Shown: one piece after another, positions 2,640 to 57,328 of the stretch
Layout: every line of letters starts with the position of its first letter
Numbering within the stretch: position 1 is the stretch's first letter
Assembly (NCBI RefSeq): GCF_032854445.1
Contig: NC_088307.1
Span: forward strand, 29,790,484-29,854,483
Length of the DNA: 64,000 nt
Source of the DNA: Liolophura sinensis
Taxonomy: Eukaryota > Mollusca > Polyplacophora > Chitonida > Chitonidae
Reading direction: 5' to 3'
Program-made: the position numbers and the translations under genes
Notes under the pieces: model-generated
What the model saw: only the letters and a program-made list of their open reading frames with translations
What the model was told of the DNA's origin: nothing
The model's database searches: none

Positions 2640-3566
2640 ATCTGATTGTTTTCGAAACATTTTACGACAGTTTAGGGGTATTTTATAGGGGTGATATATA
2701 TATTTATGACCGATTAATAAAGAAGACTGAAGGATGGAGAATTTTGCCGCTAGAATATTCAGCGCTCTGTTCTATTCAGAGTGGGTCTGTGTGGTCGAGT
2801 CGATTAGATAGGGTTACTAAACGCATTGCGCGTCTTTGTAACAGACTCAAGGGTCTGAGATGAGAGGGATAAGTGTTACCTCCTAAAACATAGTTCAGAA
2901 AAGGGGAAATTAAGGAGTTGTAAAGTATTAGTAGAGTTGGTTTGTTTATAAAGTGTTTAATATGGTTAATTATGCCAATGTTGCGAGATACTTTTTTGCA
3001 TATGTAGCTGATATGGGATGTCTAGGAATGTTTGCTGTTAAACGATATACCCAAAAATTTTAATTCGGAAACATAATCTACAACTGACCCTAGCATAGAA
3101 AGTCGAGGAATGTCCTTAGAAGAAGAGGATACTGGTCCGATGACCAAACATTTGGTTTTGTTAATGATTAACGATAGTCTGTTTGAAGTCATCCAGATCC
3201 CTGTGTGACTCCGCAGTCAACTTGGGCAAAAGAGGAATCTATAGAGTCATATTGGACACACTGAGTCCGCCCAGCTAAATAACCTGACAGCCATAGGAGT
3301 GGTTTGGCCTGAACGCCGTAATGCTTAAGTTTAGTCAGGAGTATCTTGTGATTCCCGGTATCAAATGCTTGAAATAAATCTAAGAAAGTAACAAGACTAG
3401 TTTTGTTCTTTTCTCGAGCAGATACACGAAAATCGTGTAAAGAACACTTTGCATGCTTGGTGGAATGATGGGCACGAAAACCATTTTGATTATGCGATAT
3501 GATAATATTTTCTTCGAGATATTTTGTAATATTGATTGCTGTAGATTTTTCAAATATTTTACTCAT
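2640..3566 (-). pseudogene. LINE reverse transcriptase remnant, catalytic box deleted
   Basis: The open segment 3,566-3,189 shows RT fingers and palm motifs: NGFRAHHSTKHA, FLDLFQAFDTGNHKILL and GVTQGSG (normally GVPQGS). Directly after GVTQGS the sequence jumps to a part resembling the region well after the F/YADD box (INKTKCLVIG, then ELKFLGISF). The catalytic aspartate pair has therefore been lost in an internal deletion near 3,175-3,190. The thumb-like part (NIGIINHIKHFINKP) continues near 2,870-2,990 in broken frames. The copy is dead. Confidence 0.78.
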
Positions 3567-4416
3567 GGGTGGGAGGATAGCTATCGGTCGATAATTTTCG
3601 AGTAGGTTGGGTTCTCCTGACTTATTAATGGGTGAAATTTTAGCAATCTTTAATGAGTCTGGGATGTGACCACTTTCGAAAGATAAGTTAGTGATGTGAG
3701 CTTACGGAGTAGAAATATACTCGAAAACTAGTTTGAGATCGGACATATTGATACCGTCAGTTCCTGATGCAGAAGATTGTAAGATTTCAGTTGTTTAAGA
3801 AATGGCTGCATGTGAGACGGGAGAGAAATTGAACGTATTTGAGATTGACTGGCCAAGGTATTGAGAAAAGTCGCATGTAGCATGCGGTATTTTTGACTCA
3901 AAGTTTAGATGCCATGGCAGAAAAATAATTATTGAAATTGTCGGCTATATCTTCTTCGTTAGACGCATCACAATTATTTATAGTATAAATACTATATTTA
4001 TATTAAGTTTATGGAAGAGAGAGCGATTTACCTCTGACAAGTATTTTATTGAGAACTTTCTGAGTGGCCTTTATGTCATTATTGCACTGTACTTATTTTC
4101 GAAATATGTTTTGCGATAGAATTTAATCATAATATTCAGCTTATTTCTGTATTTCCTATAATTATTTTCGAGCACTTAGGGAGGGAAACTTAAGTTGCTC
4201 GCTGTACAGTTTTTTTTTCGTTAATTGATGTAAGGAGAGATGACGTTATCCATGGTTTGCGTATTCTTTGACAGGGAGTGGCGACAGTCCGCTCAGGGAA
4301 AACCTCATCATAAACTTTTTCAAACCTTTGTACAAAAATTTCAAGAGGCTTGTTAACGGTTGTTTTTGTTATGACTTCGTCCCAGTTAAGGTTTTTAATC
4401 ATTTCCTTGAACTGAC

Positions 4417-6370: not shown

Positions 6371-8090
6371 GATAGGGTTTGAAATCCGGTGTGAGGGTTT
6401 GACGTACCGGTATGAGGGTTTGACGTACTGGTATGAGGGTTTGGCGTACCGGTATGAAGGTTTAACGTACCGGTATGAGGGGTTTGACGCACCGGTATGA
6501 AGGTTTGATGTACCGGTATGAAGGTTTAACGTACCGGTATAAAGGTTTGACGTACCGGTATGAAGATTTGACATACTGGTGTGAGGGTTTGACGTACCGG
6601 TATGAGGGTTTGACGTACCGGTATAAGGGTTTGACGTACCGGTATGAAGGTTTAACGTACAGGTATGAGGGTTTGACGTACATGTATGAAGGTTTGACGC
6701 ACCGGTATGAAGGTTTGACGTACCGGTATGAAGGTTTAACGTACCGGTATGAGGGTTTGACGTACCGGTATAAGGGTTTGACGTACCGGTATGAAGATTT
6801 GACATACTGGTGTGAGGGTTTGACGTACCGGTATGAGGGTTTGACGTACCGGTATAAGGGTTTGACGTACCGGTATGAGGGTTTAACGTACCGGCATAAG
6901 TGTTTGACGTACCGGTATGAGGGTTTGACGTACCGGTATAAGGGTTTTGCCGTACCGGTATAAGGGTTTGGCGTACCGGTATGAGGGTTTGACGTACCGG
7001 TATAAGGGTTTGACGTACCGGTATGAGGGTTTGACGTACCGGTATGAGGGTTTGACGTTCCGGTATGAGGGTTTGACGTACCGGTATAAGGGTTTTGCGT
7101 ACCGGTATGAGGGTTTGACGTACCGGTATAAGGGTTTGACGTACCGGTATGAGGGTTTGACGTACCGGTATGAGGGTTTGACGTACCGGTATGAGGGTTT
7201 GACGTACCGGTATAAGGGTTTGACGTACCGGTATAAGTGTTTGACGTACCGGTATGAGGGTTTTGACGTACCGGTATGAGGGTTTGACGTACCGGTATGA
7301 GGGTTTGACGTACCGGTATAAGGGTTTGACGTACCGGTATGAGGGTTTGACGTACCGGTATAAGGGTTTGACGTACCGGTATGAGGGTTTGACGTACCGG
7401 TATAAGGGTTTGGCGTACCGGTATGAGGGTTTGACGTACCGGTATAAGGGTTTGACGTACCGGTATGAGGGTTTAACGTACCGGCATAAGTGTTTGACGT
7501 ACCGGTATGAGGGTTTGACGTACCGGTATAAGGGTTTGACGTACCGGTATAAGTGTTTGGCGTACCGGTATGAGGGTTTAACGTACCGGCATAAGTGTTT
7601 GACGTACCGGTATGAGGGTTTTGACGTACCGGTATGAGGGTTTGACGTACCGGTATGAGGGTTTGACGTACCGGTATAAGGGTTTGACGTACCGGTATGA
7701 GGGTTTGACGTACCGGTATGAGGGTTTGACGTACCGCTATAAGGGTTTGGCGTACCGGTATGAGGGTTTGACGTACCGGTATAAGGGTTTGACGTACCGG
7801 TATGAGGGTTTGACGTACCGGTATGAGGGTTTGACGTACCGGTATAAGGGTTTTGCGTACCGGTATGAGGGTTTGACGTACCGGTATAAGGGTTTGACGT
7901 ACCGGTATAAGGGTTTGACGTACCGGTATAAGGGTTTGACGTACCGGTATGAGGGTTTGACGTACCGGTATGAGGGTTTTGACGTACCGGTATGAGGGTT
8001 TGACGTACCGGTATGAGGGTTTGACATACCGGTATGAGGGTTTTGACGTACCGGTATAAGGGTTTGGTGTACCGGTATGAAGGTTTGCCT
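6371..8090. repeat. 21-bp minisatellite, about 80 copies
   Basis: The 21-bp unit is ggtttgacgtaccggtatga plus one base, with frequent ataagg/atgagg alternation. Because 21 bp is seven codons, nearly all frames on both strands stay open. The resulting long repetitive peptides (TYRYEGL-type on plus, YRYVKPS- and IPVRQTL-type on minus) are not supported as genes. Each unit contains the 8-bp palindrome taccggta. Units with an extra t (ggttttgacg) recur at 7,261, 7,619 and 7,977, spaced 358 bp (17 units plus 1 base), so the array has a higher-order repeat. Confidence 0.92.
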
Positions 8091-17928: not shown

Positions 17929-17934
17929 TTTATT
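17929..17934 (-). promoter_or_regulatory. Poly(A) signal AATAAA overlapping the mannanase stop
   Basis: The minus strand reads GTTTAAATAAAC, so the TAA stop and an AATAAA hexamer overlap. If used, the 3'UTR would be extremely short. The 32-bp array begins only about 130 bp further on, so a short UTR would keep it out of the mRNA (inference). Confidence 0.5.
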
Positions 17935-18194
17935 TAAACATGCAGATTGAGCTTGACAAGGCCGCCTTTCGATTGGTCGTTATAGTTCCGCACTGACCGG
18001 ATGCCGTCCTCCTGGGTGATGAGATCGTCCGAGCACGACCCCTTGGGGCCCCGGGCATGCCAGCTCCAGGCCCCCGACCAGCCGTGGTTGTAGGCGTACT
18101 GATACTGTTGATTAATCGTCATGCCGCCACCGCAGTATTCACTGAATTCGGCTATCACTATTGGCTTATCCAGCTTGTAGTCGTCGGCATTTTT
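17934..18194 (-). CDS. Mannanase last exon with catalytic nucleophile
   Basis: The acceptor tctttctttttag precedes AAAAATGCCGACGAC. It encodes KPIVIAEFSEYCGGGM (nucleophile Glu) and GWSGAWSWHARGPKG, and ends GGLVKLNLHV then TAA. Confidence 0.9.
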   Translation of the reverse strand, partial: KNADDYKLDKPIVIAEFSEYCGGGMTINQQYQYAYNHGWSGAWSWHARGPKGSCSDDLITQEDGIRSVRNYNDQSKGGLVKLNLHV

Positions 18195-21100
18195 CTAAAA
18201 AGAAAGAACATTAAAATGATTGTCTCTTTTGGAGCCCTCGTCGAAGGGGTCGTTATATTGGATCAGGTAAGTGAAAAAATCGCCGAATTAGGACATCAAA
18301 TAGTTTTAAGTTTACTGAAACTGCGAATTTTAGTTAACAATTACGACTTTCATTGAACGCATTGGTAAATAACATTCTGTTAATGAATGATAATTAATGT
18401 GCTGCTTCACCTTTACTGCAGATATAGTGGTGTAGATATTGTGGTGCAGATATAGTGCCGCTTCACCGAAGCTGCAGATATAGTGGTGCAGATAACGCAG
18501 GTGCAAGAAATCTCATAAATCTTTCGAACAATGACAAAAACTAAGATGAAATCAAAGAGTAGAATTAGTCTCGCTTTTAAATATCCAACATATCCACGAT
18601 CTTTCAAGATAGCCTCGCAAAAACAGTTTAACCATTTGGATGCCTTCTTCACTATCAACAAACATGAACAACATGAACGAACATAAAAGAGAGTATAAAT
18701 TGCAAGTGTGATTAGTTTATATTTAATGTTTTTGACAAATCATGAGTAATTGCTTCGCTTGTGTCGTTAGGGGCCTGCTATAGAGTAGCACTGTTAGGTG
18801 TAGCAACAAGCAGCTCGTCTGTTTCGGAACCTAACCATCTTTTTCCTGTCTTCATTCCTTAAACAGAATGACAGCTGATAGTACATTGGTGACGTCATTG
18901 AAGCGCAACTGACTTATATAACTATACATGTAGGTCTTATGTTGCAGACTTGGGGCCACTAGAGCAAATCTAGATGCCCTGCCCTCACCTTTTGTGGGGT
19001 CATGGTGACAATAAATGTTGACGCTGTCTAAGGTTTGTTGAGGAGCACTTGTCCACCAATACGGTGTACAGATCTGTACGTCACGCGTGGGAAAGTCTGT
19101 CAGTAACTTGCCAAAGGTCGATGAGTCACTTCGTGCACTCCGAAATCCTCCTGTCGTATCTGCTGGCCGCAAACGTACATGTATAAGTGAAAAATTCTTT
19201 AAAATGGCGTTAAGCACTAATGAAATAAAAACACTTCAGGAACTTACCACTGTGGCTGATTGGTATGAATTTAACTGGTTCTGTATCTGGTACTGCGTGT
19301 GTGTTCTTACCAAGAAAGGGGCGTGTCCTTGATAGTGACTACTGGAACTGGCATAAGTATGCACCGTGTAGAAATCCAGATGTCCCTGAGAAATGGGTAG
19401 AAAATATCCATTATGCTGCCAAGTATAAATATGGGTAAAAAGATTATTTGGTTATATTTTTTTGATTGACGTTTTACGCCGTACTCAAGAATATTTCACT
19501 TATACGAGGGCGGATAACATTATGGTCGGACGAAACCAGGCAGCGCCAGGGGGAAACCCACAACCATGCGCAGGTTGCTGTCAGACCTTCCCACTTCCCG
19601 GCCGGAGAGGAAGCCAGCATGAGCTAGACTTTTTTGTTTCACTTGATTTTATATATGAATTCTATTGTAAGCCGTTCTGATTACTTTTATTAAGTTTGTT
19701 TTTAAATTGCAATCGCTTTCCTCTGCTGAAGTGCTTTCAATCCTTGTGATTAAGCATTCCTGAAGTTCATGAATTAGCTTTTATTAAATACAGTAAAATC
19801 TGAAATGAGTTCCATCTCGGCACATTGTGGGTGCAGTCACCTGGTTTCGTGCGCCAGCCAGCTTGAGGCAGTGGTCTGTGTAGAAATTCTTGGCGTAGAA
19901 CTGATCGGTAATGAACCATTGGTTAATCACACCCACAGTCACAAGACTTTTCGGGTCTTCCCGGTGGATGGCGTCCGCTTGCCAGTTCACAAACCTGCAC
20001 GAGGGAACGATGGTAGAGACGGTGTGGAGGGATGGCAGTAAGTGGTAAGAAGCCGATGATATAATAGTGGTAAGAAGCACGGGTTAGTGATAATAGGTTT
20101 GAGATATTGGTAAGGATCGTGGTATAGTGGTAATATTCATCATATAGTAGATATACACAAGCGTGAGATACTGGTAACGAACAAATTGCAGTGGTCACGA
20201 CCGCCATGTGTCTTAGCGCTTTTAATACATAATACATTTGATTGGCACATCCGAATTTTTCCATTTGCATAAATTTTTTGCCACCTAGAGCAGGTAAGTA
20301 CCTTGATGGATAACGGTGCCAGTTAATAAATTACGATCCGGCTAGACAACTTTAGTGTAGCCATCTGTATCAAGGTACAGAGTGGAATAAAACGTAACGA
20401 TACAAGTAATATGCGGCTTGATTTGATGAAGATGAAAGCTCCCTGTCGGTAAATGAAATGTTCCTTTTGAAAACTGATAAAAAACAATCACCAACTGGTC
20501 TCACTTTTGGATTTGTTGCATGGTGTATAGGTGAGCTTTTCCGCCTCCAGCGAAGCTCTTCGTGTCAAAGCAGCGCTCTGAGTTGTACAAGTACGGGATC
20601 ATTACGTTATTAGGCTCGTTGATTATGTCCCAGCCTCCTAGGGCGGGCTCGCTCTTCACCCCGCGAACGATGGGGATGAGGGCTTTGTTGATGTACGTGT
20701 CTAGCTTAGCCTCCGTCTTGATCAGCCCCTCCAGCTTGTCTGTCTGGTGGGTAGCGCCGTTCCACAGACAGAAGAACACGAGGATGTTGTACCTGTAGGC
20801 GGCCTGTAGGTACTGCTTCATGTCGCTGATCAGTGTACCGTCACGGTCTGGCGCTGTGACGAAACCGTGGCTGTCAAACTGCGGAGTGTTCTCACCCTCG
20901 ATGTGCAACCAGATTCCTGGAGCCATAAGTGATAAATGAGCAGACTGAGAAGTCAGTCAAACCCTGTATCTGAAGTAAGATCCGATACAAAAGTCGGTTG
21001 AAGATTATGACGATTTTCCTTTAGAATAGGAATGTCGATTTTATGATAATGTTTCTTTTAGAACAGGAATGCCGAGTTTAAGATTATCAGGTTTCTTTAT

Positions 21101-21863
21101 TAAGGTTTCTCTTGACATAGAAGATTAGGACAGTCCTTTTTCACACTACTCACCCCAGTGTTAGCTTGGCCTGTTTTGGAACGCACCTTATTACCCGATT
21201 GACTCGCAGACTGTGTCTACAGGAGCATTGTGTTTCTTAATCTAACAGAAATGATGACTTAACGTGGTTGATGTCATCTATCAGAACGATCACACCGACG
21301 TTCAGGTAGTACATCTACTAGGCCTATACATAGGTGATTAAACCCATGGATAAGTCTACCTCTATCATTGTTATGTGTTGAAAAAGGGCGTCCACCGAGT
21401 ACGCCGGGTTGGCGGGAGAGATGGTGTGGCAACGGCGTTGTAATCTCAGGGTGTACAAGATCCAAGACTGGTATTACCAAGGTCACGATAACTGCTAGGT
21501 GTTGTCTGACATAGCAATTGTATATTTTGACTGGGGGTGTCGTATAGAGTATTTAGCGAGGCTTTCGAATATGTGTCTTTGTTTCTTTGATGTTTCATAT
21601 TACCTCAATAATGCTGAGAGATGTTACCCGAGAAAGCAACTGTTGTAGGAGATAATGAGACGATCACATACGCACGGAATTGCCTCCAGCGTCATGAATA
21701 GCCTTCAGGTATCGTTCCAAATCCGCCTTGTTTTTGGCGTAAAGATGGTTGCCGAAATCTCTGGCGTAGTCATTCCAAGCTTGATTCATACCCGCCAAGA
21801 AGATTGTCTGACCATTGTGCTTGAACTTCTTTGTGGTTTTGTCCACTGTCAGAAAGTGAGCTC
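17934..21863 (-). CDS. Mannan endo-1,4-beta-mannosidase (GH5), five exons, N-terminal exon missing
   Basis: This is a secreted glycoside hydrolase that cleaves internal beta-1,4-mannosidic bonds in plant and algal mannans, and would be a digestive enzyme. The exons are 21863-21672, 20916-20505, 19994-19841, 19385-19311 and 18194-17934. All have GT/AG borders and matching phases, and together give about 364 residues, close to the mature length I recall for molluscan mannanases. Diagnostic parts in order: NGQTIFLAGMNQAWNDYARD; WLHIEGENTPQFD; GGWDIINEPN, whose E is the predicted acid/base; DFYTVHTYA; KPIVIAEFSEYCGG, whose E is the predicted nucleophile; and YNHGWSGAWSWHARGP. The general resemblance is to abalone, Aplysia and mussel GH5 (subfamily 10) enzymes. 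The first exon starts mid-codon, so a signal-peptide exon must lie upstream; it was not found with confidence. No frame break was seen. Confidence 0.9.
18405..18505. repeat. Small degenerate repeat in mannanase last intron
   Basis: Variants of ctgcagatatagtggtg recur about four times in the intron between exons d and the last exon. Confidence 0.6.
19311..19385 (-). CDS. Mannanase exon d (25 codons)
   Basis: The acceptor catttctcag precedes GGACATCTGG and the donor gtaaga follows TTCTTG. It encodes GHLDFYTVHTYASSSSHYQG and HAPFL. DFYTVHTY corresponds to the substrate-cleft strand with the conserved His-x-Tyr of GH5 mannanases. The exon is short and its frame is supported by phase 0 on both sides. 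Confidence 0.82.
19455..19632 (-). mobile_element. SINE family A in a mannanase intron
   Basis: A same-sense copy between mannanase exons c and d: gacgttttacgccgtactca, ttcacttatacgagggcgga, caggcagcgccagggggaaa, ggccggagaggaagccagca. The tRNA-like head is absent. Confidence 0.8.
19841..19994 (-). CDS. Mannanase exon c
   Basis: The acceptor ccctcgtgcag precedes GTTTGTGAACTGG, giving K-F-V-N-W. The exon encodes FVNWQADAIHREDPKSLVTV and FYTDHCLKLAGARNQ. It ends in phase 0 with donor gtgact. Confidence 0.88.
20505..20916 (-). CDS. Mannanase exon b with NEP acid/base motif
   Basis: The acceptor ggctccag precedes GAATCTGG, which completes the split Arg codon and then reads I-W-L-H-I-E-G. The exon carries the beta-strand residues ILVFFCLWNGA and the catalytic GGWDIINEPN. 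It ends inside the Lys codon of MQQIQK with donor gtgaga. Confidence 0.88.
21672..21863 (-). CDS. Mannanase exon a (N-terminal barrel start)
   Basis: The acceptor is tactctttccacag before GAGCTCAC. The donor comes after the C of the Arg codon in GGNSVR (gtatgtgatc). The exon encodes AHFLTVDKTTKKFKHNGQ through LKAIHDAGGNSV. It opens in phase 1, so one base comes from an upstream exon. Confidence 0.85.
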
Positions 21864-22554
21864 CTGTGGAAAGAGTACGATAAAGAGGTAACGGAAGCAC
21901 CAATGGGTAGTCAATTAAATTAGAGGCAGTATTCTTATAGAAAAAATAAGGCGAAGAGGTAACAAAAAGCAAGAATGACGGTGAATTAAAGTAGCATCTG
22001 TGCTCCTGTAGAAACAATAAGATGAAGAAGTACGAAAGCACCAATGGCGGGTAATAAATCTAGAGTCCGTAGTAATCGTCGTAGCGTGTTTCGTAACCAT
22101 AACCTAGCTTACCGCCGTAGTGTGGTACACGAATGTAATATAGTTACAGGATGCGATGTGACCATTGGAGATTACAGTCTCCGCCGCTCTAAGATTATAT
22201 TCTGTAATGATCACGTGACAAGTATACACATGAACCATCCAGACGGCTGCGTGAACGTTCGGGACAGAACTAGAGCAGAACACAAGGAATGTTTACGTTA
22301 TACGTGGTCTGTATTCCAGTCATGGGGCGACGTTATAACGATGTCTTATAAAATAGTACCTGAAGAACTTGTTACGGTTATGGTCAAAGAACTCCTGCCG
22401 GCAGTTGTCACAAATGTACACCATTATACACGTGTATTTAAATGGATGGATTAGTTGTAAGGCGATGTTTCTGAATACCTCAGCGGATGGACCATTCATC
22501 CATATACACATCTTCACGATACAAGAAAACCTGCCTGGGGTACAGTCAGCTTAA
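21864..22554. other. Region 5' of the known mannanase exons, no exon identified
   Basis: This should be intron or upstream sequence of the mannanase gene. A weak imperfect duplication is visible (21,880-21,960 versus 21,990-22,050, sharing gaggtaac/gaagtacg and gcaccaatgg). No convincing signal-peptide exon was seen. Confidence 0.4.
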
Positions 22555-34100: not shown

Positions 34101-34199
34101 TAGAAATCTGCTTGCCGCCATTGAATACATCTGCAATGCAGCCTCCCCGAGAGTGTTACATGTCCATCATTTGATACATCCGCCACTTTTATTTCCTCA

Positions 34200-35126
34200 C
34201 TGACTGGTAAATGTTATTTTGTTAATTCCTACGTTAACTTAAGTTGTATTGCGTCCAATTGTATTTACTTCGTAACATGCAAGAAGTGTGGTCAGCAGTA
34301 TGTTGGGAAGACCACCCAGAAACTACATTTACGGGTGAACGGGCACCGTAGGTCCGTGCGCAAGAAACAATTGCTAATAGGCAAGCATTTCTCTGCCTCC
34401 GACCATGACTGGGACAATTTCAGCAGTCACATCATAAAATCGGTTTATCCATCCACAAATGAGACTGATGTCGAATTTGAACGTAAAATCCGTGACCGTG
34501 AGCTTTTCTGGATGCTAGAGATTGGTTCAGTCTTCCCATATGGGTTGAATAATAACGTTATGGGAATCGGCAATGTAACATCTAGCCAACCACATGACTC
34601 CATCGTAACAAATTTATTCAAACACCATAAACGTAGACCTCGCAGTCATGGTAGGAGGAAGTTCAACAGAAACATGATTCAGAAACACGTTACAGTTAGC
34701 TATTTAGCAGGATTGTCGTATGACACCAACAGCATGCATGCTCTACGCACAGTATTATATGCACTGCCATTAAACTTGCTAAAGCAGATCGTTCAAGACG
34801 TATCCAATAACATACACAATTTTAATGTTCCACCTCACCCTGTACGTCTGTGCAAAGACATATCGTATTTTCGATTGTTTCGCCCTGTAACTACAATTGA
34901 AACTCAACACGATCGACTCTTTCTGAAGATAAAGTATTTAGACAGTGGCCTTGATTTAATTAACCTACCACGCATCTTTAATGAACCTGATGTTCGTAGT
35001 GTTGTGCCTAATTATTTTAATATCCAAGAGCCACCTTGCATTAAAAGCCTATCGATCCAAAATTTTCAATTATTCCCAGGCCATCAAGGAGTTCGATTTG
35101 GCGACGTATACTTCTGGCGGCTATAA
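34200..35126 (+). pseudogene. Naiad endonuclease (GIY-YIG) and spacer
   Basis: The frame from about 34,140 reads NCIYFVTCKKCGQQYVGKT, the GIY-YIG-like strand pair with a C-x2-C, followed by RVNGHRRSVRKKQ and KHFSASDHDW. This gives the Cys-Cys-His-His set typical of Penelope-group endonucleases. The catalytic-region glutamate probably lies in RDRELFWMLEIGSVFP. The spacer (to about 35,030) is long and then shifts frame. The domain would nick target DNA for primed reverse transcription. Confidence 0.78.
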
Positions 35127-35394
35127 CTGTGATTGTGAATCCTCAGTTTTTACCTACGACAAATGTAAATATGTCCTGACTGGTGACCTTAATATTATTA
35201 AGAATCATGATCTAAGAAATCTCTTTGTGAGGGGTCCTAAGTATAGAGAAAAGAGTAATGTCAACATTCGATCAAACAAAAAAATATCATCTCGGCACTT
35301 GAGGAGTATATTAAAAAATGGTCGAAACGGGAGAAAGTGGATTCTTCGGCACTTAACGATTGGCTTGAGATTGTCAAAAAGAAAGTTAGTTTAA
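34981..35394 (+). pseudogene. Naiad CxC linker segment
   Basis: After the first frameshift the coding sense continues here: KAYRSKIFNYSQAIKEFDL, GGYNCDCESSVFTYDKCKY and VLTGDLNIIKNHDLRNLF. The C-D-C is the characteristic CxC motif joining the endonuclease and RT in this element class. A run of A at about 35,279-35,285 coincides with the next frameshift. Confidence 0.75.
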
Positions 35395-35456
35395 CTATAC
35401 ACCGTCTAGACATTGATGCTCTACCTAAAGTTAAATAGGTTCTGAAGGATCCCTCT

Positions 35457-36545
35457 GTGCAAGAAACACTCGCTGACCTTCATAGTAAATTTGTCATCAC
35501 TGTAGCAGACAAGGCTCCTAATAATTTCATCTTTATTTGCCAGAATTATTATTATCAAATTCTTGTTCAAGAGCTATGTGCATCTACAACGACATCCACG
35601 TATTCTGCTACTACATGTACTCTGGAGGAACTATTTAACAAACACAAAACCTTTCTTAAAGAAAGGCGCATAAATATACCTACCCGTCACACCGAAATAT
35701 CCCAACTTTACTGCATTCATAAAATGCATAAATCCCCATACAAGGCTCGATTTATTGCAGGTTCAAGAAGCTGTACCATCAAACTCTTGCCAACCCTACT
35801 TACGACAGCGTTACAAGAAGTAAAGTCATTTTGGAATAAGTATTGTTGTGCCATAACAAAAAATTCAGGTGTCAACTGCATGTGGATTCTTGACAACTCC
35901 AAACGTCTTACAGAAGAACTCGATGCTCATATGCATATACCGTACAAAGACGTATCCACATGGGATTTCTCTACTCTCTATACTACGATTCCTCACAAAG
36001 ATCTTATTGAAAGAATATCGTCGTTAATTGTCTCGGTATTTACTAAAACTGGTCACCGTTACATTAACGTCAGAAGCAATAAGGCTTTCTTTAGTTCTAC
36101 TCTTTATAACGGTTACCACTCATGGGATGTTACATTATTTATTGAATTACTTGAATTTCTCATTAATAACATCTATGTGAAATTCGGAGATACGATTTAC
36201 CAACAGTGCATAGGTATTCCAATGGGTACCAATTGTGCGCCTCTTTTGGCAGACCTGTACCTGTTTTCATATGAATACGACTATATGCAGAAATTACTTA
36301 ACAGTAATATCTTTAAAGTTCGATCCTTTTCATTTACCAAGCGGTATATTGATGATCTACTGGCGTTAAATAATCCCATATTACTGAAGCGGTGAAGGAA
36401 ATCCATCCGCCTTCTCGCCATATCTCGCCTTGTAGCATTTGTCAGATCTTGCGTTAATTGTGATGACTTTACTCTGCGTCACAAGTTGCTAGTTCAAAAA
36501 CTAGTTTCTCTCAAATTTTACAATGAATATAACACTCTCGTTGGC
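35457..36545 (+). pseudogene. Naiad reverse transcriptase, internally deleted
   Basis: RT landmarks in order: YKARFIAGSRSCTIK; TWDFSTLYTTIPH (motif A with its Asp); GIPMGTNCAPLLADLYLFSY (motif B region); and FTKRYIDDLLALNNP (motif C, the catalytic Asp pair). Right after NNPILLKR a TGA is met. Downstream the same frame gives ISRLVAFVRSCVNCDDF, which resembles a part normally much further on, so about 100 codons appear deleted. Upstream, the same frame is open back to a TAG near 35,436. Confidence 0.82.
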
Positions 36546-41104: not shown

Positions 41105-41770
41105 AATAGCCCGAGATCCCAAATGGTAATGTATTACTGGTAGAGGGAACCCTAGTCCGAGATCTCTAATGGTGATGTATTACTGATAGAGGGAGCCATA
41201 AACCGGGATCTCTAATGTATTACTGATAAAGGAAATCGTAGTCAGAAGATCCCTAATGCTAATGCATTACTGACAGAGCGAACCATAGTCCGAGATCTCT
41301 CATGTTGATGTATTACTGATAGAGGACCACAGTCCGAGATCTCTAATGCTAATGTTTTACTGACAGAGGAAACCATAGTCCGAGATCCCTAATGATAATG
41401 TATTACTCAGAGCGAACCATAGTCCGAGATCTCCCATGGTGATGTATTACTGATAGAGGACCACAGTTCGAGATCTCTAATGCAAATGTATTACTGACAG
41501 AGGAAACCATAGTCCGAGATCCCTAATGATAATGTATTACACAAAGCGAACCATAGTCCGAGATCTCCCATGGTAATGGTTCCCTAATAGACAGAACCAT
41601 GGTCCGAGATCCCTAATGGCAATGTATTACTGATGGAGGGAACCATAGTGCAAGACCTCTAATGGTGATATATAACTGATAGAGGGAACCATAGTCCGAG
41701 ATCTCTTATGTTAATGCATTACCGACTGCGGGAACCATAAAACGAGATAACAAATGGTAATGAACCATTT
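41105..41770. repeat. About 46-bp minisatellite, about 14 copies
   Basis: The unit is ccgagatctctaatggtgat, gtattactgatagagg, gaaccatagt. Copies vary in length (40-50 bp). Confidence 0.85.
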
Positions 41771-44041: not shown

Positions 44042-44161
44042 TCATAGTGCTGCTTTCAAAAGTTTTGCGGCTGGAGCATCCAGGAACCACACAAGATCCC
44101 CATTGGTTGGTCGGACTCTGGCGGCAGGAAGTGGCTCTGCTTCCTTTTCCTCTAAAACTCG
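44042..44161 (-). CDS. PGLS: PGLS last exon
   Basis: The acceptor cctcattatttttgcag precedes CGAGTTTTAGAGG. It encodes [19 protein letters not shown], then [19 protein letters not shown] and TGA. This is a clear match to the C-terminus of animal PGLS (LPAA-V, W-F-D-AAA). Frame phase 0 from exon 4. Confidence 0.9.
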   Translation of the reverse strand, partial: RVLEEKEAEPLPAARVRPTNGDLVWFLDAPAAKLLKAAL

Positions 44162-47100
44162 CTGCAAAAATAATGAGGAAAATCATGCATGCGTTCAGAC
44201 TTTCTTCCCATCAGGTTTGCAATAACACAGGACACTTTATGCTGCATCTGCAATATGAAAATTGTATCACAGCGACATCATACTGATGAATCAGGTTTTG
44301 ACGAAGGATATGTGTGAAATGCCTCTCATGCATGTACAAAATCCACAAAAAGAGAAGAGCAATTCGTATTTAAGAATCACTTGTTATACACCATAAATAA
44401 ACTGAGTATGTGGCTCAGCTGGTTAGCGCGCTAGCGCAGCTTAATGACCTATGAGCCGCTCAACAATGCGGTCACTGTGAGTTCAAGTCCAGCTCATGCT
44501 GGCCTCCTCTCCGGCCGCAAGTGGGAAGGTCTGGCAGCAGCCTGCAGGTGGTCGTTGGTTTCCCCGGTTTCCCCGAACCATAATGCTGGCCGCCGTTGTA
44601 TCAGTGAAATATTCTTGAGTACGGCGTAAAACACCAATCAAATTAATAAATAAAATCAAAATATGTGTATGTACCTATCAAGTCTCAGCACAATACAGAC
44701 AAGGGCAGCGTCCTAACTTAAAATACCTGTATATACCTATCACGTTTTGGTACACTCCATAAGGCAGTGTCCTAACTCAGAACACCTGTATGTACCTATC
44801 ACGTCTAGGTATATTCCACAGGGCAGTGTCCTAAGTAAGAACACCTGTGTGTTGCTATCACGTCTTGGTACACTACATAGAACAGTGTCCTAACTCAGAA
44901 CACCTGTATGTAGCTATCACGTCTAGGTATATTCCACAAGGCAGTGTCCTAAGTAAGAACACCTGTATGTGCCTATCAAGTCTTGGTACACTACATAGGG
45001 CAGTGTCCTAACTCAGAATACCTGTATGTACCTATCACGTCTTAGTACACTAAATAGAACAGTGTCCTAACTCAGAACACCTGTATGTAGCTATCACGTC
45101 TAGGTATATTCAACAGGGCAGTGTCCTAAGTAAGAACACCTGTATGTGCCTATCAAGTCTTGGTACACTACATAGGGCAGTGTCCTAACTCAGAACACCT
45201 GTATGTACCTGTCACGTCTTAGTACACTAAATAGAACAGTGTCCTAACTCAGAACACCTGTATGTAGCTATCACGTCTAGGTATATTCAACAGGGCAGTG
45301 TCCTAAGTAAGAACACCTGTATGTGCCTATCAAGTCTTGGTACACTACATAGGGCAGTGTCCTAACTCAGAACACCTGTATGTACCTGTCACGTCTTAGT
45401 ACACTAAATAGAACAGTGTCCTAACTCAGAACACCTGTATGCACCTATCATGTATTGGTATACTACACAAGGCAGTGTCCTAACTCAGGATACCTGTGTG
45501 TAGCTATCACGTCTTGGTATATTACACAGGGCAATGTCCTAACTCAGAATACCCCTATGTACTTGTGTGCGCATAACAACCGTAAAATGTCATTTTAATT
45601 TGGAAATTTAACATAAAATGACATGTTGACGTTACCTTTAGAATTTCTGCCTTACTTGCCCCACAGGACACAAACACTGCACAGGCTGCATTGTTGAGGA
45701 CTGGGTAGGTCAAGGTCACTCGGCCTGGTGGAGGTTTGGGCGAGTCGCTGATAGCAGCTGCAATCATATCAGTCACCTGTATCAATCAATAATAATACAG
45801 AAATGATCTTTCACTTAATTCCAACCTGCTGTATTCCCTCATTCTTAAATTAGTTCCACTACTGTTAGGATGTAGCAATGAGCCCTTAAATGACTCAGTT
45901 CTCAAGCCTGAACCACTAAGGCTAGGATTATAGGAGAGGGCCCTTCAATGACTCAGTTCTCATGCCTGAACCACTAAGGCTAGGGTTATAGCAGAAGGCC
46001 TTTCAATGACTTAGATCTCAAGCCTGAACCACTAAGGCTAGGGTTATAGCAGAAGGCCCTTCAATGACTCAGTTATCAAGCCTAAACCACTAAGGCTAGG
46101 GTTATAGGAGAGGGCCCTTCAATGACTCAGTTCTCATGCCTGAACCACTAAGGCAAGGGTTATAGCAGAAGGCCTTTCAATGACTTAGATCTCAAGTCTG
46201 AACCACTAAGGCAAGGGTTATAGCAGAAGGCCTTTCAATGACTTAGATCACCCACTCAGGCTAGGGTTATAGCAGAAGGCCTTTCAATGACTTAGATCTC
46301 AAGCCTGAACCACTAAGGCTAGGGTTATAGCAGAAGGCCTTTCAATGACTTAGATCTCAAGTCTGAACCACTAAGGCTAGGGTTATAGCAGAAGGCCTTT
46401 CAATGACTTAAATCTCAAGCCTGAACCACTCAGGCTAGGGTTATAGCAGAAGGCCCTTCAATGACTTAGATCTCAAGCCTGAACCACTCAGGCTAGGGTT
46501 ATAGTATAAGGCCCTTCAATGACTCAGTTATCAAGCCTGAACCACCAAGGCTAGGGTTATGGGAGAGGGCCCTTCAATGACTCAGTTCTCATGCCTGAAC
46601 CACTAAGGCTAGGGTTATAGCAGAAGGCCTTTCAATGACTTAGATCTCAAGCCTGAACCACTAAGGCTAGGGTTATAGCAGAAGGCCTTTCAATGACTCA
46701 GTCCTCAAGCCTAAACCACTAAGGCTAGGGTTATAGCAGAAGGCCTTTCAATGACTTAGATCTCAAGCCTGAACCACTAAGGCTAGGGTTATAGCAGAAG
46801 GCCTTTCAATGACTCAGTCCTCAAGCCTAAACCACTAAGGCTAGGAATATACCAGAGGGCCCTTCAATGACTTAGTTCTCAAGCATGGGCAAATCAGATA
46901 AGGATTACAGCATGGAAGGATGTATGCCTATGTGGTCTTTCCCTACACAACCCCACACTACTGTGTAACAGTCTGTAACCTGGAAACAAGGAGCATGTGT
47001 GCCCATCTGATTGCTCCCTTGATAACCCCATACTCACCTGTAACAGTCTGTGACCTCGAAACAAGTAGCATGTGTGAGGTGTCTGGTTGCTCCCTTGATA

Positions 47101-50100
47101 ACCCTATACTCACCTGTAACTGTTTGTGACCTGGAAACAAACAGCATGTGTGTCCATCTGATCGCTCCCTTGATAACCCCATACTCACCTGTAACAGGTT
47201 GTGACCTGGAAACAAGGAGCATGTGTGCCCATCTGATCGCTCCCTTGATAACCCCATACTCACCTGTAACAGTTTATGAGCTGGAAACAAGGAGCATGTG
47301 TGCCCATCTGATCGCTCCCTTGATAACCCCATACTCACCTGTAACAGGTTGTGACCTGGAAACAAACAGCATGTGTGCCCATCTGATCGCTCCCTTGATA
47401 ACCCCATACTCACCTGTAACAGGTTGTGACCTGGAAACAAGGAGCATGTGGGCCCATCTGATTGTTTTCTTGATAACCCTATACTCACCTGTAACTGTTT
47501 GTGACCTGGAAATAAACAGCTTGTGTGCCCATCTGATCGCTCCCTTGACAACCCCATACTCACCTGTAACAGTCTGTGACCTGGAAACAAGGAGCATGTG
47601 TGTCCATCTGATCGCTCTCTTGATAACCCCATACTCACCTGTAACAGGCTGTGACCTGGAAACAAGGAGCATGTGTGCCCATCTGGTCCCATGCCTAACA
47701 CGAGAACATCGAAGCGGGGGAGATCAGGCTCCGGGAAAACCTCACGAAGTTTTTTCCTGTAATCTACTGCGGCTTCTTCCACTGTAACACAGAGAAGACA
47801 ACACACATAGACTGATGTGTTCAGCTGTCCTGCATTCATTCTCACCATGGATTCACTGCAACACACAGAAGACAACACACATAGACTGATGTGTTCAGTT
47901 ATGCTGCATTCATTCTCACCCTGGATTCACTGTAATGCAGAGAAGACAACACATATAGACAGATGTGTTCAGCTGTGCTGCATTCATTCTCCCTCTGGAT
48001 TCACTGTAACACACAGAAGACAACACACATAGACTGATGTGTTCAGCTGTGCTGCATTCATTCTCACCCTGGATTCACTATAACACACAGAAGACAACAC
48101 ACATACACTGATGTGTTCAGCTGTCCTGCATTCATTCTCATCCTGGATTCACTGTAACACAGAGGAGACAACACATATAGACTGATGTGTTCAGCTGTCC
48201 TGCACTCAGTATCACCCTGGATTCACTGTAACCCAGAGAAGACAACACACATAGACTGATGTGTTCAGCTGTGCTGCATTCATTCTCACTCTGGATTCAC
48301 TGTAACCCAGAAAAGACAACACACATAGACTGATGTGTTCAGCTGTGCTGCACTCATTCTCACCCTGGATTCACTGTAACACAGAGAGGACAGCACACAT
48401 AGACTGATGTGTTCAGCTGTCCTGCACTCAGTATCACCCTGGATTCACTGTAACCCAGAGAAGACAACACACATAGACTGATGTGTTCAGCTGTGCTGCA
48501 TTCATTCTCCGCCTGGGTTCACTGTAACACAGAGAGGACAACACACATAGACAGATGTGTTCAGCTGTGCTGCATTCATTCTCACCCTGGATTCACTGTA
48601 ACCCAGAAAAGACAACACACATAGACTGATGTGTTCAGCTGTGCTGCACTCATTCTCACCCTGGATTCACTGTAACACAGAGAGGACAGCACACATAGAC
48701 TGATGTGTTCAGCTGTCCTGCACTCAGTATCACCCTGGATTCACTGTAACCCAGAGAAGACAACACACATAGACTGATGTGTTCAGCTGTCCTGCACTCA
48801 GTATCACCCTGGATTCACTGCATTTGTAAACATATTGGTATTTTTTGTCTGTTCATGTAGCCAATGTCATTTTAACACACTGGAAATTAAAACCATAATT
48901 TTATACACACCAATGTGTGGAATCTGTAAATATCAAAATAATTTTAAATCTGATCGGAGTGGTCCTCGATTACCTGATACATTCCAGTCAATTGGATAGA
49001 CTTGGTCTTTCTTCAGGCTTGGAACCCTGGACAGCAAATTGTCCACGTAGATTTGGTATGTACACTCAGGGTCTGTTGGAGGAACGTGTCGCTCATCACA
49101 GAAAAACACTCTCCACTTTGACCAATCTGTTTCTAACTTTGGCAGACCATTACAGAGAAATTTGGACACACTGCCACCTGTAAACAGAGGAAACAAGATG
49201 AAACAGCAATTCATGTTTTATATAAGCAAGACCTGAAATTATACCCTATAACCAAGATTTATTTGACTAATGTTTTACGCTGTAGTCAACAATACCTTAC
49301 TTGTATGACAGCAGCCAGTATTATAGTGGGTGAAAACTGGGGAGAGTGGGGGGGGAACCAACAACCATCCACACTTTGCTGGCAGGCAGACCTTCTCGTA
49401 CAGCCCGTAAGGAATCCAGCTATTGAACTCACAGCAACCACATTGGCGGTTCCAGGTCAATAAGGAATATCTAGATTTTTTGACAGCTCGACACACTTTT
49501 CATCTTAACACTAAAACAAACTTTATTGACTGAGAATTAAATAAAATTGCACAAAATTAAGGTGTATTGATTATTCCTGGCAACATGAGACTACATTATG
49601 GGTGCCAGAACCATTGAGGAGTTTAGCTGAGTCCTGATCTCTGGTAACATGAGACTACATTATGGGTACCAGAACCATTGAGGAGTTTAGCTGAGTCCTG
49701 ATCTCTGGTAACATGAGACTACATTATGGGTGCCAGAACCATTGAGGAGTTTAGCTGAGTGCTGATCTCTGGTAACATGGGAATACATTATGGGTGCCAG
49801 AACCATTGAGGAGTTTAGCTGAGCGCTGATCTCTGATCACATGAGACTACATTATGGGTGCCAGAACCACAGAGGAGTTTAGCTGAGTCCTGATCTCTGG
49901 TAACATGAGACTACATTATGGGTACCAGAACCATTGAGGAGTTTAGCTGACTGCTGATCTCTGATCACATAAGACTACATTATGGGTGCCAGAACCATTG
50001 AGGAGTTTAGCTGACTGCTGATCTCTGATCACATGAGACTACATTATGGGTGCCAGAACCACAGAGGAGTTTAGCGGAGTCCTGATCTCTGGTAACATGA

Positions 50101-56100: not shown

Positions 56101-57328
56101 GATAAGACCATCTCCAATGGTCTTTGTGTATTCTTTGTCTTTATATGTCTTCATAAACATTCATAATATATAGATTAGTCTGTATATAGCCTGACATTTA
56201 GTAGAACAAGATCAATCTATACAATATACAGGCTGATCTATATATACACGTATCGGCCTGTGTATAACATTTTGCAGAACAGTTTTATAATAACCGAAAT
56301 ATAGGCCTATATGTACGTCAAATCCATCATTATTGCAAAAATATTTATTTATTTATTTACTTATTTATTAAATTGGTGTTTCACGCCGTACTAAAGAATA
56401 TTTCACTTATGCGACGGCGGCCAGCATTATGGTGGGATGACACAGGGCAGAGCCCGGGTGAAACCCACAACCATCTGCAGGTTACTGGAGGACCTTCCCA
56501 TGTACAGCCAGAGAGGAAGACAGTATGATATTGCAAAAATAAAGAAAGTGCTCATAGTAAATTTATTTAATAACTGTATTCCTGGTCTTTGTTTTGTCTT
56601 CAATGTCTTCAATGTCTTCATAATTACGTGACTGACCAGAAATAGTGCGCCAGTAATTACATATTTATATGAAAATATATAGGTAAAACTTTGATTGCAA
56701 AAATGAAGAAATGTTCATAATGAATTTATTTAATAACTGTAATTTACTATTTGATGGGTATTGCGTGCTATACATGCCTAGTATTTAATATTTCACATTA
56801 TACCTGAAATCAGATGTGTTATTCCTGCTTAATATATAAGCCGTTTAAGTCCGTTTCCGGCCTCGTGAACGATACGATCCTATTTTCAATATCAGCCGCC
56901 GTTCCCGGGCCTGCGGGAACGTCGTCTTCAGAAATTTGACGATTTCTCGGCAAATAAAGGTCCAATTTAAACATATATGGTATACACAGACAGGTTAAGT
57001 CAATCACAGGGTAGCAGTTTCATATCCAATTTGTCTCGTTCTTATACCTTAAATTGACAGGCCGTCATTAGGTCGTGTTCTAGATCAAGCCGGTCGTGGC
57101 TACGCTAGGTAGCATACTATGTCGACCAGGAAGTAGGGCACTGAGAGCAGAAATGCGTTATAAAGCTTGTTGACAACCTTCTCACCTGAAAGTCCAACGG
57201 TAAACAACCCCTTCTGCTTAATGGCGTTGTTTGCCCTTTCGATAATAAACGCGCAACTTCGTTTGCAACTAAAGTGTCACTTTCCAGCACCTTGACTGTG
57301 GGCGCAGCCATCTTGAATAGCCTCCAAC
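44042..57328 (-). CDS. PGLS: 6-phosphogluconolactonase, five coding exons
   Basis: The enzyme hydrolyses 6-phosphogluconolactone to 6-phosphogluconate, the second step of the oxidative pentose phosphate pathway, in the cytosol. Coding exons: 57311-57186 (exon begins 57328), 49177-48974, 47781-47639, 45776-45636 and 44161-44042. All borders are GT-AG and phases match across every junction. The order [65 protein letters not shown] and [11 protein letters not shown] matches PGLS from end to end. Total coding length is 734 bp, one short of 245 codons, because exon 1 appears to lack a base near 57,250. Introns are large and filled with private minisatellites. CDC73 starts about 2 kb away in the opposite direction. 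Confidence 0.93.
44400..44655 (+). mobile_element. SINE family A, near-complete copy, antisense in PGLS intron 4
   Basis: The best tRNA-like head in the window: tggctcagctggttagcgcg (box A) and gtgagttcaagtccagc (box B). The body follows (tcctctccggccgcaagtgg, attcttgagtacggcgtaaa), with an (aataaat)-type tail. Confidence 0.85.
44680..45560. repeat. 59-bp minisatellite in PGLS intron 4, about 15 copies
   Basis: The unit is gtcctaactcagaacacctg, tatgtacctatcacgtcttg, gtacactacatagggcagt. Three unit types recur in the same order, giving a higher-order period of about 177 bp. Confidence 0.88.
45636..45776 (-). CDS. PGLS: PGLS exon 4
   Basis: The acceptor attgattgatacag precedes GTGACTGATATG. 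It encodes [20 protein letters not shown] then [19 protein letters not shown]. The pyrimidine tract of the acceptor is poor. An alternative AG 15 bp further in (gattgcag) is possible, but spacing to human PGLS favours the first. Donor gtaacg. Confidence 0.88.
45870..46885. repeat. 58-bp minisatellite in PGLS intron 3, about 17 copies
   Basis: The unit is cctttcaatgacttagatct, caagcctgaaccactaaggc, tagggttatagcagaagg. There are two main unit types (acttagatct and actcagttct). Confidence 0.9.
46960..47690 (-). repeat. 75-bp array repeating PGLS exon 3 end plus its splice donor
   Basis: Each 75-bp unit (minus strand) is the last 45 bases of PGLS exon 3 ([11 protein letters not shown]-type codons ending TTACAG) plus the first 30 intron bases (gtgagtatggggttatcaag...). 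Eight extra units follow the real exon end. All nine junctions keep TTACAG/GTGAGTAT exactly. Units 1-7 stay in frame with exon 3 without a stop; unit 8 is shifted. The array forms the first ~0.7 kb of intron 3. Confidence 0.92.
47639..47781 (-). CDS. PGLS: PGLS exon 3 with catalytic-loop signature
   Basis: The acceptor gttgtcttctctgtgttacag-type tract precedes TGGAAGAAGCC (V-E-E-A-A). It includes [20 protein letters not shown] and [20 protein letters not shown], the 6PGL signature whose His is implicated in catalysis. Donor TTACAG/GTGAGT. Both its splice sites are repeated many times in the flanking arrays. Confidence 0.92.
47782..48830 (-). repeat. 74-bp array repeating the PGLS exon 3 acceptor
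   Basis: On the minus strand each 74-bp unit contains gttgtcttctctgtgttacag/TG-type sequence: the pyrimidine tract, AG and first two exon bases of PGLS exon 3. Thirteen extra copies precede the real acceptor at 47,782. Some units have ggttacag or tgcattacag variants. After the AG the units read TGAATCCAGGGTGAGAAT, unlike the exon. The array fills most of intron 2. Confidence 0.9.
48974..49177 (-). CDS. PGLS: PGLS exon 2
   Basis: The acceptor cctctgtttacag precedes GTGGCAGTGTG, giving G-G-S-V-S. It includes [20 protein letters not shown] and [20 protein letters not shown]. The donor gtaatc follows a lone G that is completed by TG of exon 3. Confidence 0.92.
49258..49462 (-). mobile_element. 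SINE family A in PGLS intron 1
   Basis: The copy reads taatgttttacgctgtagtc, atgacagcagccagtattat, gaaccaacaaccatccacac and ctcacagcaaccacattggc, a diverged but near full-length body. Confidence 0.75.
49560..52010. repeat. 64-bp minisatellite in PGLS intron 1, about 38 copies
   Basis: The unit is aacatgagactacattatgg, gtgccagaaccattgaggag, tttagctgagtcctgatctc, tggt. Distinctive variant units (cgttaagtttacctgtgtcc) recur at about 50,829 and 51,409, so a ~580-bp block is duplicated within the array. Confidence 0.93.
52011..52539. other. Unassigned AT-rich part of PGLS intron 1
   Basis: No recognised feature. Confidence 0.45.
52540..52750 (-). mobile_element. SINE family A in PGLS intron 1
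   Basis: The copy reads ttatttgattggtgttttac, accatactctagaatatttc, acagcggccagctttatgct and cccatgaatacccacaagtt. Diverged. Confidence 0.75.
52805..52895. repeat. Short AT repeat (ttaccaaattaaaa)
   Basis: The motif ttaccaaattaaaaattaaa recurs about five times in tandem. Confidence 0.7.
52960..54375. repeat. 131-bp repeat in PGLS intron 1, about 11 copies
   Basis: The unit contains acaaaccaggtttgtttaca, ttagcatatatttaactaca, cataatctggaattcaagtt, an (attt)n stretch and agcatgttttctatgatgta. Copies are spaced about 131 bp. Each has tgtttac, which resembles a forkhead-factor site, but there is no evidence it is used. Confidence 0.9.
54376..55514. other. PGLS intron 1, low-complexity tracts only
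   Basis: It holds a C run followed by (ca)n at about 54,750-54,782 and several purine- or pyrimidine-rich stretches. A pair of related segments sharing attcaggta-ttgtctt lies at about 54,940 and 55,035. No gene was seen. Confidence 0.45.
55515..55645 (-). mobile_element. SINE family A, head-side fragment
   Basis: Only the second half is present: cgggggaatcccatgaccat, atgcaagttgctggcagaac, gaactcacagcaactgcata. Confidence 0.7.
55646..56339. other. Unassigned AT-rich part of PGLS intron 1
   Basis: Poly-A of about 18 at 55,648-55,665. No gene or repeat was recognised. Confidence 0.45.
56340..56530 (-). mobile_element. SINE family A in PGLS intron 1
   Basis: The copy reads tatttatttatttacttatt, ggtgtttcacgccgtactaa, cgacggcggccagcattatg and ccatctgcaggttactggag. 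Confidence 0.8.
56531..57185. other. 5' end of PGLS intron 1
   Basis: Two similar segments (gcaaaaa-aaagaa-tgttcataatgaatttatttaataactg at about 56,530 and 56,695) form a small direct duplication. No other feature was recognised. Confidence 0.5.
57186..57328 (-). CDS. PGLS: PGLS coding exon 1, apparent one-base deletion
   Basis: The acceptor attttttgtcaacag precedes 17 bp of 5'UTR and ATG at 57,311, which implies an upstream noncoding exon. The N-terminal frame gives [20 protein letters not shown]. The end of the exon, which must read FTVGLSG in phase with exon 2, lies in a different frame ([14 protein letters not shown]...). The shift is located at gaagttgcgcgtttatt, about 57,248-57,254. 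Donor gtgaga. Confidence 0.85.

Follow-up and report, generated by a model that had tools for sequence, protein, structure and literature searches.

Minisatellites at exon/intron boundaries

Tandem copies of an exon/intron boundary have been described in amphioxus under the name 'mirages', namely in the Adh3, globin, troponin C and PGBD5 genes (PMC3087553, PMC3902484). As far as the accessible text of these two papers goes, the AG/GT signals are kept in many of the repeated units, not in all of them. The Adh3 data and the globin RT-PCR are said there to suggest that splicing is undisturbed at the mirages (PMC3087553, PMC3902484). The authors of the globin study also considered that the copies could serve as cryptic sites and thereby yield alternative transcripts, and the same text refers to the AG/GT proto-splice-site model (PMC3087553).

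Related arrangements have been reported elsewhere. In human segmental-duplication genes, internal tandem repeats are found at exon/intron boundaries, where they are said to be capable of switching on cryptic splice sites and giving rise to new introns (PMC2812944). Introns can also be gained by tandem genomic duplication, in which a stretch with splice signals is copied in tandem (PMC4974935, accessible part). A variable intronic minisatellite with a 27-bp unit is shown for abalone in the available text of PMC6905558, which does not touch on boundaries. In the literature searched, no report of mirages under that name was found outside the cephalochordates, the human boundary repeats going by a different one, and the search for duplicated donors returned nothing.

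The window analysed here is the whole stretch of 64,000 nucleotides of DNA. Exon 3 of its PGLS (6-phosphogluconolactonase) gene is very probably flanked on both sides by neutral mirage minisatellites, rather than forming part of a system that generates protein variants. The original prediction knew of no description of such an arrangement, which is contradicted by the published amphioxus mirages (PMC3087553, PMC3902484). From what is accessible of those papers, the mirages of Adh3, BflGb6, BflGb9 and troponin C (and the imperfect ones of PGBD5) are likewise boundary-spanning arrays at 5' or 3' boundaries, with AG/GT in many units. At PGLS, the unit spans the true exon/intron boundary on the donor side and barely does so on the acceptor side, and splice signals recur in many units (9 donors, 15 AG/TG sites). 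Unlike the amphioxus cases, exon 3 of PGLS has arrays at both ends, with units of 74 and 75 bp, and the gene is probably lophotrochozoan instead of cephalochordate. The cephalochordate origin of the mirages in the cited papers concerns the host group and is not a structural criterion. The human boundary repeats share the minisatellite expansion at boundaries (PMC2812944), whereas at PGLS nothing points to a new intron or an alternative transcript. Intron gain by tandem duplication, as presented in the accessible part of PMC4974935, creates a new intron, whereas at PGLS repeated copies of a boundary that was already there extend into the intron. As far as the literature searches go, the locus extends boundary-spanning mirage minisatellites beyond amphioxus.

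The PGLS gene

The PGLS gene lies on the minus strand of the window and consists of five exons (Table 1). The exon limits were read by eye from the splice consensus and the alignment, and were then checked by joining the exons. When exons 2-5 are joined, with the innermost splice pair used at exon 3, a single open frame runs to the stop codon, and every boundary has its AG and GT. The product aligns over its length with the 6-phosphogluconolactonases of molluscs, a nemertean, a brachiopod, a vertebrate and others, and the protein made with the innermost pair shows no indel at the exon 3/4 junction in comparison to 17 aligned homologues. A crude joined query matched 15 PDB sequences, most of them named 6-phosphogluconolactonase (best E 6.4e-11), and all 120 matches listed (the best 120 of 5095) have a precomputed PF01182 assignment.

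In exon 1, the frame of the start codon and that of the conserved FTVGLS are offset by one base, near a short T run, while the homologues are without such a break. Either an error in the assembly or a broken haplotype or allele may account for this offset; exon 3 is not affected. The gene, the exon end, the donor copies and the frame had all been correctly recognized in the original prediction, but the one-base break in exon 1 had been overlooked.

Among the listed homologues the best identity is 69%, and each organism name visible in the first 47 matches is that of a mollusc, nemertean, brachiopod or annelid. In a tree of 32 PGLS rows, the window groups with Solemya, Tubulanus and Octopus, and then with Haliotis. 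The forks, however, lie below the mark for strong support, and the lophotrochozoans Lineus, Owenia and Lingula fall elsewhere in the same tree. Judged by these sequences the gene is probably lophotrochozoan, and the tree alone does not settle the group. Amphioxus was discarded as the source on the strength of the organism names among the first 47 matches.

Table 1. Positions in the window of the PGLS exons and of the tandem arrays in and next to them; a slash marks a splice junction.
Feature	Position	Strand	Description
PGLS exon 1	57186..57311	-	counted from the start codon (57311) to the TCAG/GTGAGA donor
PGLS exon 2	48974..49177	-	204 nt; TTTACAG/GTGGCA ... TATCAG/GTAATC; phase 1 at end
PGLS exon 3	47639..47781	-	143 nt; TTACAG/TGGAAG ... 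TTACAG/GTGAGTAT; phase 0 at end; holds the signature catalytic loop
PGLS exon 4	45636..45776	-	141 nt; GATACAG/GTGACT ... CTAAAG/GTAACG
PGLS exon 5	44042..44161	-	120 nt including the stop codon
Acceptor-side array	47780..48820	-	74-bp unit x 14.1 (TRF); ends on the exon 3 acceptor
Donor-side array	46949..47685	-	75-bp unit; nine CAG/GTGAGTAT copies, the true donor among them, and an incomplete tenth unit
Further intron 3 array	45882..46884	-	58-bp unit x 17.4; no exon overlap
Intron 4 array	44666..45562	-	59-bp unit x 15.2; no exon overlap

Two arrays around exon 3

On the donor side, TRF finds 9.8 copies of the 75-bp unit with 89% matches. Each unit combines approximately 47 bases of the exon 3 end with 28 intron bases. 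The junction TTACAG/GTGAGTAT occurs nine times in exact form, with the last exon base at 47639 (the true donor), 47564, 47489, 47414, 47339, 47264, 47189, 47114 and 47038. The donors are thus spaced by 75 bp each, except for a final step of 76. The partial tenth unit ends in TTACACAGTAG and has no donor. The predicted tandem array of the exon 3 end with its donor is therefore real. The coordinates given for it leave out the second array, on the acceptor side, which had been missed.

Use of donors 1-8 gives exon 3 lengths from 143 to 668 nt, all in phase and free of stops. Donors 2-8 (218 to 668 nt) would insert one to seven in-frame blocks of 25 residues, and the frame check bears out the earlier claim of seven extra units in phase and without a stop. 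Likewise, six of these seven blocks keep DGH and one has DGP, as had been stated. Donor 9, which follows the 76-bp step, is out of phase and leads to a stop once joined to exon 4. An exact MAGGTRAGT is present in only one of the 26 arrays examined, namely nine times in the donor-side array; a strong donor confined to this array is what copying from the exon would produce.

Most donor-side units also contain an acceptor-like site, TTTCCAG/GT, 58 nt past a donor where this was measured. Among the nine units, one carries the variant TTTCGAG and one TTTCCAGCT. Given this distance, tiny introns of 58 nt would be formally possible.

The acceptor-side array contains 15 AG/TG sites, which are the true acceptor at 47781 and 14 upstream copies. 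When spliced to exon 2, all 14 upstream acceptors run into a stop after 4 or 6 codons, so that this array is unable to serve a frame-preserving scheme. It reaches only about two exon bases (TG), and acceptor-like motifs are found in some arrays away from exons as well (14 in 41106-41762 vs 11 here, counted with one pattern). For both reasons, the acceptor side is weaker evidence of exon-boundary copying. Together, the two arrays surround exon 3 with repeats of both its splice sites. Their units are of nearly equal length (74 vs 75 bp), and GTTACAG is common to the acceptor and the exon end.

Tandem arrays across the gene and the window

TRF scored the two exon 3 arrays at 1148 and 1697, where the threshold is 50; the existence of the arrays is far from anything expected by chance. 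Tandem arrays with a length of 100 bp or more number 26 in the window and cover 31.7% of it. Within PGLS, arrays of this size make up about 59.8% of the intron bases (48, 87, 91 and 61% per intron). Two of the eight splice sites lie inside arrays. When arrays are placed at random, with positions taken as independent of exons, the probability of at least two such sites is 0.99 at the intron density and 0.78 at the window density. With arrays this dense, two of eight is no excess. A period divisible by 3 is seen in 9 of 25 arrays, the donor-side array included (one hand-picked period per array). One array with a 21-bp unit spans 1.7 kb (6374-8087).

Selection and coding constraint on the donor units

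Across the donor-side units, 19 of the 75 columns vary, and the longest invariant run is one of 15 columns, over the donor. Of 20000 circular column shuffles, 3331 yielded a run at least this long, with the run taken as circular and the 1-bp shift of unit 9 handled by gapping its first nine columns. This count supersedes an earlier one of 395 in 20000, which was obtained with a linear run and with unit 9 misaligned at its start. It is true that the junction is fixed while its neighbours vary, as the original prediction had it, but this is not significant, and donor invariance was rejected as a sign of selection.

The exon-derived and intron-derived parts of the unit vary to a comparable degree: 12 of 47 vs 7 of 28 columns, with mean pairwise differences of 0.095 and 0.077. 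By codon position 1, 2 and 3, varying sites number 1/15, 6/16 and 5/16. Only the scarcity of variation at first positions might point to constraint; second and third positions are about equally variable. In the exon part of the eight in-phase units, 4 synonymous and 7 nonsynonymous changes and no stop were counted (null means 2.9, 7.5 and 0.6). There is no synonymous bias in this part, and the counts fit random placement. Overall, the column and substitution tests, which have low power with nine units, gave no indication that the alternative segments are under coding constraint.

Exon 3 and the donor-side array can also be read through in another sense frame for 149 codons and in an antisense frame for 246 codons. 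Such additional open frames are expected from the repetition of a homogeneous unit. The open frame was therefore rejected as evidence of isoforms, since other frames over the same stretch are open likewise.

Origin and possible effects of the arrays

Of the two alternatives raised earlier, a by-product of local duplication is supported, while a ladder of PGLS isoforms has gained no positive support past the open frame. In this second scheme, competing donors would produce PGLS proteins with one to seven extra signature-loop blocks of 25 residues each. In its favour, donors 2-8 all match the true donor exactly, keep the phase and bring in no stop. However, neither the missing synonymous bias nor second codon positions as variable as the third agree with it, and the 149-codon and 246-codon frames are equally open. 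In addition, the signature loop pattern is present as a single copy in all 120 listed homologues (the best 120 of 5095), none of which has a second copy by this pattern. The spacing from the loop to the next motif is 11-12 residues in 107 of 107 listed homologues in which that motif was recognized (in the 13 others it was not). The species of the window is absent from this list, so these proteins cannot show the use of its own array. The blocks would also sit directly after the catalytic loop, where they would be expected to harm the enzyme. A functional isoform ladder is accordingly judged very unlikely. We give just as little credit to the bolder proposal that decoy sites form two opposed ladders around exon 3, in which the outer donors contribute in-frame copies of the loop and each outer acceptor brings on a stop. 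Array length, differing from one individual to the next, would then tune how much enzyme is made and in which form. If true, a lophotrochozoan would here possess a length-polymorphic splicing rheostat.

Occasional use of the outer donors and acceptors, as low-level splicing noise, would overlap with the neutral reading and is possible, though we hold it for the less probable case. There are many consensus-matching sites, and all 14 upstream acceptors as well as donor 9 lead to stops. Misused acceptors and donor 9 would then give premature stops and donors 2-8 inert proteins, so that the array length would set a small cost in PGLS output. Against such noise, the amphioxus mirages are reported, in the accessible text, to leave splicing undisturbed (PMC3087553, PMC3902484). 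That the arrays are unconstrained because the gene is a decaying pseudogene or haplotype appears improbable. The exon 1 start-codon and FTVGLS frames do lie one base apart, but exons 2-5 are undamaged, as are the splice sites that bound them, and misassembly could account for a single-base offset at a short T run. Tandem arrays are difficult to assemble, so the arrays themselves could be artefacts. However, a distance matrix of the nine donor-side units contains no identical pair; seven of the nine differ from all others at two or more positions, and the closest pair differs at one. An assembly artefact is thus scarcely credible.

The neutral mirage reading can be put as a sequence of steps. 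Short tandem duplications would arise by slippage or unequal exchange. Some of them would by chance have spanned the last ~47 bases of exon 3 with 28 intron bases, and its acceptor. These may then have grown into arrays, like about two dozen other minisatellites in the window, with the copied donors and acceptors as presumable by-products of array growth. In exon definition, the spliceosome pairs an acceptor and a donor across the exon body. At exon 3 it would pair the innermost acceptor and donor over the unique 143-nt body, so that the normal enzyme would be made and the outer copies would mostly be ignored, with leaky use at most. With 15 acceptors and nine identical donors, from which the innermost pair presumably wins, exon 3 is a natural test of exon definition. 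Among the points that weigh against the neutral reading, the nine donors are identical over 15 columns, and judging from this identity competition among them is possible. Moreover, isoforms would need a period divisible by 3 and a unit that stays open in the phase of the exon, and the donor-side array has both.

Other features of the window

A fragment of a reverse transcriptase (PF00078, E 9.9e-14) lies at 3189-3701 on the minus strand. Exon-like frames at 17934-22059 on the same strand resemble, in our reading, a GH5 mannanase, and a Pfam scan of two pieces of this stretch gave no match at E 0.01. On the plus strand, GIY-YIG-like and reverse-transcriptase-like frames, both under the Pfam cut-off, were found at 34125-36395, a pair that we assume to be typical of Penelope-like elements. 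A repeat containing GTGTTTTACGCCGTACTCAAGAATATTTCACT occupies 44380-44640 and is presumably a SINE common in molluscs.
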